Source: Rubellimicrobium rubrum
Lineage (GTDB): Bacteria; Pseudomonadota; Alphaproteobacteria; Rhodobacterales; Rhodobacteraceae
Direction of reading: 5' to 3'
Assembly: GCF_006152115.1 (NCBI RefSeq)
Contig: NZ_VDFU01000008.1
Location: 124,001-188,000, forward strand
DNA: 64,000 nucleotides
Under the pieces are notes generated by a model. The model made no database searches. It was not told the origin of the DNA and saw nothing but the letters and a program-made list of their open reading frames with translations. Position 1 is the stretch's first letter, and each line of letters starts with the position of its first letter. Below are positions 45,591 to 49,188 of this stretch, in pieces. A program made the position numbers and the translations under genes.

Positions 45591-46367
45591 ATGCTTTCCT
45601 ACCAGCACGGCTACCACGCCGGAAACCTCGCCGACGTCCAAAAACACGCCATGCTCGCCTGGGTGCTGGCGGAGCTTGGGAAAAAGGACAAGCCGCTCAG
45701 CTACATGGAAACCCATGCGGGCCGGGGGCTCTACGACTTGGGCAGCGGCGAGGCGCTCAAGACCGGCGAAGCGGCGGCGGGGATCCAACGCGTCGAAGGG
45801 TGGTTCGCCCAGGACGACCCCTATGCCAAGGTGCTGGCAGAGACGCGCCGGATGCATGGGCCTCGCGCCTATCCGGGCTCGCCCCTCGTGGCTGCCCTGA
45901 CGCTGCGCCCGCAGGACCGGATCACGCTGGCCGAACTCCACCCGCGCGAAGGCGACGCCCTTCAGCGCAACCTCGCCCCGCATGGCGCACGGATCGAGCG
46001 GCGGGACGGAGCGGAGATGGCCCTGACACTGACCCCACCCACGCCGCGCCGGGGCTTTTTGCTGATCGACCCATCGTGGGAGGTGAAGGACGAGTACGCC
46101 ACGGTTCCGGACCTCATGGAGCGGGTGCATCGGCGCTGGAACGTGGGCGTGCTGATGCTGTGGTACCCCCTTCTGCCCGACGAGCGGCACGCCCCCATGC
46201 TCAGGCGGCTGGAGCGGTCCTTTCCCGACGCGCTCCGGCACGAGGTCCGGTTTCCGCCGGCCCGGCCCGGCCATGGCATGGTGGGCTCGGGCCTGTTCAC
46301 CGTAAACCCGCCCTGGCGGCTGGACGAACGCGCGGCCTGGCTCGCTGAGCGTTTCGTGACGCTCTGA
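45591..46367 (+). CDS. rlmJ: 23S rRNA (adenine-2030-N6)-methyltransferase RlmJ
   Basis: SAM-dependent enzyme that N6-methylates A2030 in 23S rRNA. The 258-residue protein begins MLSYQHGYHAGNLADVQKHA, the RlmJ-type start, and has SYMETHAGRGLYDL as the SAM site and RGFLLIDPSWEVKDEY as motif IV. The motif is DPSW rather than the usual DPPY/F, a substitution worth noting. A strong GGGGGGACC region precedes ATG 45591. Single gene. Confidence 0.9.
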   Translation: MLSYQHGYHAGNLADVQKHAMLAWVLAELGKKDKPLSYMETHAGRGLYDLGSGEALKTGEAAAGIQRVEGWFAQDDPYAKVLAETRRMHGPRAYPGSPLVAALTLRPQDRITLAELHPREGDALQRNLAPHGARIERRDGAEMALTLTPPTPRRGFLLIDPSWEVKDEYATVPDLMERVHRRWNVGVLMLWYPLLPDERHAPMLRRLERSFPDALRHEVRFPPARPGHGMVGSGLFTVNPPWRLDERAAWLAERFVTL

Positions 46368-46406: not shown

Positions 46407-46850
46407 ATGTTCGAGCACCTCCTCCGCCGCCTCCTGTCACCCGCCCCTGAAACCCTCCCCGACCCGGACGCGCGTCTGGCGCTGGCGGCCCTTCTCGTAC
46501 GGCTGGCCCGGACGGATGGGCACTACACCGCCGCCGAGGTGAGCCGCATCGATCAAGTGCTGAGCGCCCGGTTCGGCCTTGGCCCTTTCGAGGTCGCCCG
46601 CCTGCGAGGCGACGCGGAGGTCCTGGAGACAGAAGCGCCCGACACCGTCCGCTTCACCCGCGCCATCAAGGAACACGTGCCCTACGAAGAGCGGCTAGGG
46701 GTCATCGAGGCGCTCTGGGAGGTCGCGCTGGCGGATGGCCGGCGCGCCGAGGACGAGGACGCGCTGATGCGGCTTGTGGCTCCGATGCTCGGGGTGGAGG
46801 ACGCCGACAGCGGTCTTGCGCGTCAGCGCGTGGACGCCCGGCTGCGGTGA
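46407..46850 (+). CDS. TerB-like protein
   Basis: 147 residues, all helical, with the two-repeat TerB pattern of acidic motifs: LALAALLVRLARTDGHYTAA then LGVIEALWEVALADGRRAED, each a helix followed by an Asp-Gly loop. TerB-like proteins are often found with stress or metal functions but no reaction is assigned. The frame stop overlaps the next gene's GTG start (GTGA), so it is coupled to the broken PhnD-like gene. Confidence 0.75.
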   Translation: MFEHLLRRLLSPAPETLPDPDARLALAALLVRLARTDGHYTAAEVSRIDQVLSARFGLGPFEVARLRGDAEVLETEAPDTVRFTRAIKEHVPYEERLGVIEALWEVALADGRRAEDEDALMRLVAPMLGVEDADSGLARQRVDARLR

Positions 46851-47587
46851 TCGCCGCTCTTCCGATGTACGACCGGCCCGACAACTGGGCGGCGCATGAC
46901 GCGCTCTGGTCGCTCATCCGGGACGGGCTTCGGTCCCGGGGGAATGCGGCACCCGACGCGCTGGACCACGGGACGGACCCCATGGACGAATGGGGACGGC
47001 CGGACCTCGTGCTCGGGCAGATCTGCAACCTGCCCTAGTGGGCGCGGTTGCGGGACCGGGTCACGATCATCGGCGCCGCCGACTATGAGCTCCCCGGTGC
47101 CGGGCCGGGAGAGTACTACAGCGTCGTCATCGCCCACGCCGCCAGTCCAGCGCTGGGTGCGCGCTTCGCGCTCAACGACGCGGCGTCGAACTCCGGCTGC
47201 GACCTTGGGCAGGAGTAGGCGGCATGCAACGGGATCGCGATCCGGCCGGTGCTGGTCACGGGCTCGCACGCCGCCTCGCAGAGGGCGGTGACCAACGCCC
47301 GAGCGGACCTGGCCAGCATCGACGCGGTGACCTTCCGCAACCTGCGGCGCTGGGACGACACGGCCCGCCATGTCCGTGTGGTGGGCCACACAGCATCCGG
47401 GCCGGGCATGAGCTTCATCACCGCCAGGAGCCGCGACCCGGCCCCGTTCCGTGCCGCGATCGCAGAAGCCATCGCCGCCCTGCCCAAGGTCGAGGCAGAG
47501 GTGCTGGGACTTCGGGCAGTGGTGGTCTTGCCCCTGTCGGCCTATGAGCGACGGCTGCCCCCGTCACCTGACGTCACAAAGGCCTAA
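46847..47587 (+). pseudogene. PhnD-like substrate-binding protein interrupted by two in-frame TAG codons
   Basis: One frame of 247 codons from GTG 46847 to TAA 47585-47587, broken by TAG at 47036-47038 and TAG at 47216-47218. The three parts join into a protein resembling small cytosolic-looking phosphate/phosphonate (PhnD-type) binding proteins: MYDRPDNWAAHDALWSLIRD, then WARLRDRVTIIGAADYELPG and FALNDAASNSG, then VLVTGSHAASQRAVTNARAD with LASIDAVTFRNLRRW. No frameshift is seen. TAG is a normal stop for several intact genes here (phaZ, slyX, the WYL gene), so read-through by a recoded genome is unlikely. The simplest reading is a recently inactivated gene. Confidence 0.75.
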
Positions 47588-47650: not shown

Positions 47651-48430
47651 GTGCCGAACGACGCCGCGCCCGTCATTGAAATTCGCAATCTTCACAAGGC
47701 CTATGGGTCGCTCGAGGTGCTGAAGGGCGTCGATATCGCCGCGCCCGCCGGGCATGTGGTGGCGATGATCGGATCCTCGGGATCGGGCAAGTCGACTCTG
47801 CTCCGCTGCTGCAACCTGCTGGAGGACAGCCAGCAGGGCGAGGTGGTGTTCTGCGGCGAACCGGTGCTTTGGAAGGGACGCGGCATGGACCGCCGCCCGG
47901 CGGACCGGACCCAGGTGGTCCGCATCCGCACAAACCTGTCGATGGTCTTCCAAAGCTTCAATCTTTGGTCCCACATGACGATCCTCCAGAACGTCATGGA
48001 AGCGCCTCTAACCGTCCTGAAGCGCGACCCGCGCGAGGTCGAGGACAAGGCCCGCGCCTACCTCGCCAAGGTTGGCATCGCCGACAAGGCTGATGCCTGG
48101 CCTGCGCAACTGTCAGGCGGGCAGCAGCAGCGCGCCGCCATCGCGCGCGCGCTCTGCATGGAACCCAAGGCCCTTCTTTTCGATGAGCCCACCTCCGCGC
48201 TGGACCCCGAGCTGGAACAGGAGGTGGTCCGGGTGATCAAGGCGCTGGCCCAGGAAGGGCGGACGATGATCATCGTGACGCATGACATGAGGCTTGCGGC
48301 GGATGTCGCCCATCATGTCGTTTTCCTTCACAAGGGTCGCATCGAGGAGGAAGGCCCTCCCGACCGGCTTTTTGGAAACCCTCGGACGGAGCGGCTCCGA
48401 GGGTTCCTGTCGGCCACGCAGGCCGCCTGA
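47651..48430 (+). CDS. Polar amino-acid ABC transporter, ATPase (HisP/GlnQ type)
   Basis: 259 residues. Walker A SSGSGKSTLLRCCNLLED, Q-loop SMVFQSFNLWSHM, signature LSGGQQQRAAIARALCM, Walker B ALLFDEPTSALD and switch histidine IVTHDM are all intact. The HisP-like segment around FNLWSHMTILQNVMEAPL marks the basic/polar amino-acid class. It drives the two permeases encoded 0.8-2.5 kb further on. The start codon is GTG at 47651, 63 bases after the broken gene. Confidence 0.93.
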   Translation: MPNDAAPVIEIRNLHKAYGSLEVLKGVDIAAPAGHVVAMIGSSGSGKSTLLRCCNLLEDSQQGEVVFCGEPVLWKGRGMDRRPADRTQVVRIRTNLSMVFQSFNLWSHMTILQNVMEAPLTVLKRDPREVEDKARAYLAKVGIADKADAWPAQLSGGQQQRAAIARALCMEPKALLFDEPTSALDPELEQEVVRVIKALAQEGRTMIIVTHDMRLAADVAHHVVFLHKGRIEEEGPPDRLFGNPRTERLRGFLSATQAA

Positions 48431-48462: not shown

Positions 48463-49188
48463 ATGAAAAGACTTCTGCTCGCCTCCGCCCTGGCGCTCTC
48501 GGCGTCGGCGGCGCTCGCGCAGGACGTGGTGCGGATCGGCACCGAGGGAGCCTATCCGCCCTACAACTTCCTGGACGACTCGGGCGAGATCGCCGGCTTC
48601 GAGCGGGAGCTCGGCGACGAGATGTGCCGCCGCGCCCAGCTGACCTGCGAATGGGTCACGAACGAGTGGGACTCGATCATCCCGAACCTCGTCTCGGGCA
48701 ACTACGACGTGATCATGGCCGGCATGTCGATCACCGACGAGCGGGACGAGGTCATCGACTTCACCCAGAACTACTACCCGCCCACGGCATCGGCCTATGC
48801 GGCCCCCAGCGCCGAGGCCGATATCCAGGGTGGCGTCGTGTCGGCCCAGGCGGCGACCATCCAGGCCGCGCATGTCGCCACGACGGGCGCCACGCTCCAG
48901 GAATACGCCACTCCCGAGGAAACCGTGGCCGCCGTCCGCAACGGCGAGGCCGATGCGGTGTTCGCGGATTACGACTTCCTGGCGCCGATCGTGGCGAACT
49001 CGGGCGGCGAGCTTCAGTTCGTGGGTGACCGCGTGCCGCTGGGCGGTGGCATCGGCGCAGGCGTCCGTGAATCCGACACCGCGCTTCGCGACCAGCTCGA
49101 CGCCGCGATTCAGGCCATGAAGGACGACGGCTCGGTGAACGAGCTTCTCGCCAAGTGGTTCCCGGGCGAAACCGTCCCGAGCTTCTGA
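48463..49188 (+). CDS. Polar amino-acid ABC transporter, periplasmic binding protein
   Basis: 241 residues: signal peptide (MKRLLLASALALSASAALA), then the SBP_bac_3 fold with DVVRIGTEGAYPPYNFLDDS, GELGD-type ELGDEMCRRAQLTCEWVTNE and SIIPNLVSGNYDVIMAGMSI, which resemble HisJ/ArgT. Two cysteines (CRRAQLTC) could form a disulfide as in LAO-binding proteins. Ligand likely a basic or polar amino acid or related amine. A hairpin follows the gene. Confidence 0.93.
   Translation: MKRLLLASALALSASAALAQDVVRIGTEGAYPPYNFLDDSGEIAGFERELGDEMCRRAQLTCEWVTNEWDSIIPNLVSGNYDVIMAGMSITDERDEVIDFTQNYYPPTASAYAAPSAEADIQGGVVSAQAATIQAAHVATTGATLQEYATPEETVAAVRNGEADAVFADYDFLAPIVANSGGELQFVGDRVPLGGGIGAGVRESDTALRDQLDAAIQAMKDDGSVNELLAKWFPGETVPSF

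Follow-up and report, generated by a model that had tools for sequence, protein, structure and literature searches.

The locus described here raises the question of whether a gene that carries two in-frame TAG codons, and that can otherwise be read from end to end, has recently been lost or is still being translated through its stops. It lies in a stretch of 64,000 nucleotides from Rubellimicrobium rubrum, hereafter the window, and its features are collected in Table 1. We consider it highly probable that the PhnD-like frame is an ordinary young pseudogene that arose by nonsense changes. The initial annotation had proposed a frame of 247 codons starting at GTG 46847, interrupted by TAG at 47036 and 47216 but free of frameshifts, and translation reproduced this exactly: the internal stops, at codons 64 and 124, are the only ones in the frame, which ends with a TAA at 47585-47587. 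The coupling to the TerB-like gene is also preserved, as the GTG start overlaps the TGA of that gene in the form GTGA. The description of the gene as otherwise intact holds in so far as there is no frameshift and no indel is required in a codon alignment with three congeners, but it does not extend to the substitutions found at genus-invariant sites, such as an R-to-W change beside the first TAG and a W-to-C change in the SGW motif (47198-47200).

Table 1. Features of the PhnD-like locus and its surroundings, in coordinates of the window
Feature	Position	Strand	Basis
RsmJ/RlmJ methyltransferase gene (PF04378), intact, upstream neighbour	45591..46367	+	ORF, Pfam
TerB-like gene (PF05099), intact, partner conserved in the family	46407..46850	+	ORF, Pfam, relatives
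PhnD-like (Phosphonate-bd, PF12974) gene, very probably inactivated, two internal TAGs	46847..47587	+	Translation, homology, Pfam
First in-frame TAG, codon 64	47036..47038	+	TGG in congeners G002, G006, G005 and G001; Phe (TTC) in G007
TGC (Cys) replacing conserved Trp, SGW motif	47198..47200	+	Trp in genus and most of family
Second in-frame TAG, codon 124	47216..47218	+	Trp in 6/6 gene-bearing congeners
ABC transporter ATPase, HisP-like, intact, follows the locus in congeners	47651..48430	+	ORF, profile matches
Polar amino-acid (Lys/Arg/Orn-type) ABC substrate-binding protein, intact, the transporter's own	48463..49188	+	ORF, profile matches

The frame is a real coding gene and not a chance opening, because its translation (with TAG read as a residue) aligns over its full length with the intact gene of the nearest congener at 71% identity (E 9e-112), matches 27 of the 61 genomes searched, its own included, and scores 43.1 bits against the Phosphonate-bd profile PF12974, whose gathering cut-off is 27. 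When the single protein was searched against contigs, it matched four named Rubellimicrobium loci, in R. arenae, R. mesophilum and two MAGs, while a search of its own genome with the translation gave no second copy. The designation PhnD-type, used in the initial annotation, is correct for the fold family and goes too far beyond it. A profile comparison places AioX (PDB 6esk, E 6e-20), ArrX, PtxB and PhnD nearest among solved structures; these are binding proteins with which the gene shares the PF12974 fold family. In contrast to these proteins, the aligned relatives of the PhnD-like gene have no visible N-terminal signal peptide (their N-termini, read from the alignment by eye and not with a dedicated predictor, are MIAxLPMYD or similar), and its partner is a TerB-like gene rather than a phosphonate transporter. 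Moreover, the family does not reach the NCBIfam cut-offs for PhnD and 3A0109s03R: with the PhnD-specific models TIGR03431 and TIGR01098, the intact congener copies score 21.5-27.9 bits against 261.1 and 27.3-35.2 against 112.05, respectively. The protein belongs to the Phosphonate-bd fold family and is not a demonstrated phosphonate-binding transport protein. Predicted from four sequences alone, a structure of the intact R. arenae copy was of low quality (mean pLDDT 35) and was left unused.

The alignment with 25 relatives shows no stop at either TAG position in any of them. At the first, four congeners carry Trp (TGG) and a fifth carries Phe (TTC), the sixth congener copy being partial and ending short of this site; among more distant relatives, Tyr, Phe or Leu predominates there. 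At the second, Trp is present in all six gene-bearing congeners, and the more distant copies vary. Since the congeners have Trp at these sites, with a single Phe at the first, both stops are most simply read as TGG-to-TAG changes, each requiring one G-to-A transition. About 54% of the nonsense routes open to the congener's codons give TAG, and the probability of obtaining two TAGs and no TGA or TAA by chance is therefore about 0.29. Natural termination of the homologues at the first TAG, which the initial annotation had named as grounds for abandoning its reading, was rejected, as the relatives run full length.

A TerB-like gene lies upstream of the PhnD-like gene in the congeners, and the same holds for three or more other genera of Rhodobacteraceae; in the congeners, the PhnD-like gene is followed by an amino-acid-type ABC transporter that has a binding protein of its own. 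One congener, G004, shows the order RsmJ, TerB, ABC ATPase, with the PhnD-like gene absent between TerB and the transporter; there (L090:8122-9542, G004:C2), some 200 bases separate TerB from the ATPase, and the PhnD-like gene was not found elsewhere in the G004 genome. Because G004 lacks the gene and keeps both TerB and the ABC transporter, the PhnD-like gene is dispensable, and its loss is recurrent: the genus has seen two such events or more, here through nonsense changes and in G004 as a whole gene. Across Rhodobacteraceae, the pairing of a TerB-like gene with a PhnD-like gene devoid of a signal peptide is conserved (46407-47587 in the window; loci L009, L012 and L016), and in L016 two overlapping TerB-domain frames lie upstream of the PhnD-like gene. 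The locus of G006 (L071:8640-9500) differs from those of the window, G002 and G004, as an RsmJ-sized ORF was not seen directly upstream of its TerB gene.

How long ago the gene was lost can be approached with a codon model. Synonymous sites are near saturation between the four species compared, which makes the values of omega and of the neutral tail rough; with this reservation, omega was 0.06 on the window branch against 0.10 in the background, a difference that is not significant (2dlnL 1.2), and it departed strongly from omega = 1 (2dlnL 46.9), while adding a neutral tail at the end of the branch cost 1.8 log-likelihood units at about 25 point changes and 4.3 at about 49, the constrained part of the branch being about 38 times longer than the tail of about 25 changes. 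The same model gave no sign of accelerated protein evolution on the window branch. On this model inactivation was followed by no more than about 25 neutral changes, which must amount to only a few percent of the time that has passed since the lineage separated from R. arenae, and the loss would for that reason be very recent, in agreement with the initial annotation, which had favoured recent loss. Nonsense changes make up about 2.7% of random point changes, and two of them within 25 changes are slightly above expectation. At columns invariant in the genus, the frame departs at 12 of 109 positions (one of them a TAG) and the nearest congener at 2 of 100, but two more distant congeners, with 11 of 109 each, nearly match it. 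The lack of any departure at the 29 family-conserved columns and an omega that is not raised are compatible with continuing selection as well as with recent loss, and to that extent count against the pseudogene.

Among the biological alternatives, only low-level read-through retains some plausibility. The gene would still be used, with near-cognate tRNAs reading both UAGs at a low level and producing a little full-length protein, as has been suggested for numerous in-frame stops of bacteria. The omega of the window branch is well below 1, there is no frameshift, and both TAGs fall at aromatic sites that might accept an inserted residue; all of this speaks for read-through, and bacterial genes with in-frame stops and dN/dS below 1 have been reported (Belinky et al. 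2021, PMC7918605). However, the TAGs occur in one genome only and the low omega mainly reflects the period that preceded them. Two UAGs in a row compound the loss, the searches revealed no suppressor tRNA, and the gene is dispensable, as its absence from G004 shows. Many bacterial in-frame stops have been argued to be tolerated, and yet to be short-lived (Belinky et al. 2021, PMC7918605). One genome cannot separate recent loss from continued use, and the dispensability seen in G004 favours loss. We thus regard continued use of the gene as very unlikely, and we are just as doubtful, if not slightly more so, that the two UAGs merely lower the level of the PhnD-like protein without abolishing its expression.

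Alternatively, the TAGs could have been introduced during sequencing or assembly, or could belong to a minority variant of the culture, with sense codons in the true gene. The sequence does come from a single draft genome, but two independent errors of the same kind within a gene of 741 bases are improbable, the assembly is 99.98% complete and 0.16% contaminated, and the genes on both flanks are clean. An artefact is therefore very improbable.

TAG is an ordinary stop in this genome, as the initial annotation had argued from several intact genes. In 864 kb of the same genome, 77 of the 520 coding segments with 150 or more codons (15%) close with it, and release factor 1 (prfA) is present with a score above its cut-off. 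The search for an amber suppressor tRNA that had been suggested was carried out in two ways. None of the 40 tRNAs found with Rfam has a CUA anticodon, in a set that is incomplete (tRNA-Tyr was missed and a few isoacceptors were unseen). A pattern scan built on the anticodon loop and the T-arm recovered the missed tRNA-Tyr in its GUA version, and in its CUA version the sole tRNAs matched were two tRNA-Glu, off register. At seven other same-frame TAG junctions, one of them (L165) poorly resolved, no domain crosses the TAG, and five of the seven split two distinct known proteins, for example an ABC ATPase and histidinol dehydrogenase. Nor is the in-frame UAG conserved in orthologues, as would be expected of programmed read-through; every relative has a sense codon. 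Recoding of TAG to Trp or some other amino acid, either across the genome or in certain genes, would explain why both TAGs replace Trp codons, but it is barely conceivable against the release factor, the failure to find a CUA tRNA, the share of long coding segments that end in TAG and the seven junctions, none of them spanned by a domain. Two loci can be recorded in their own right: at L139:10237-10992 (G000:C13), the gene-transfer-agent (GTA)-type tail genes Phage_tail_2 and GTA-gp10 are adjacent in the same frame with a TAG between them, and at L165:1119-4667 (G000:C58), two long same-frame segments are split by a TAG at 2310, the only recognised domain being a helicase C-terminal domain downstream.

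The young pseudogene is thus supported by the sense codons in relatives, the single copy, the loss in G004, the ordinary use of TAG as a stop, the presence of release factor 1 and the failure to find a CUA tRNA. The frame is homologous over its full length and has internal stops, and these stops are derived. The ancestral gene would have encoded a small protein of the PhnD/AioX fold without a signal peptide, translationally coupled to the TerB-like gene. A G-to-A transition would have turned a Trp codon from TGG into TAG, and another TGG-to-TAG change would have followed, unopposed by selection. Translation would now stop at codon 64 (or 124), and the resulting fragment would lack most of the binding fold. 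The neighbouring genes remain intact; the order of the two changes, and the view that no functional protein is made, are what we infer. The case resembles the young nonsense pseudogenes described previously (Belinky et al. 2021, PMC7918605), which have in-frame stops in a single lineage with sense codons in orthologues, an otherwise open frame and a low dN/dS inherited from the period that preceded inactivation. Nothing essential sets it apart from them, the occurrence of both TAGs at Trp codons being a mild coincidence.

In practical terms, the PhnD-like frame should be annotated as one pseudogene, and not as two or three small genes. The finding is of modest interest for what it adds to an uncharacterised, conserved TerB/PhnD-like pair of the Rhodobacteraceae. 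In this pair, TerB has been kept intact despite at least two losses of its PhnD-like partner within one genus, which suggests that TerB functions independently of the PhnD-like protein.
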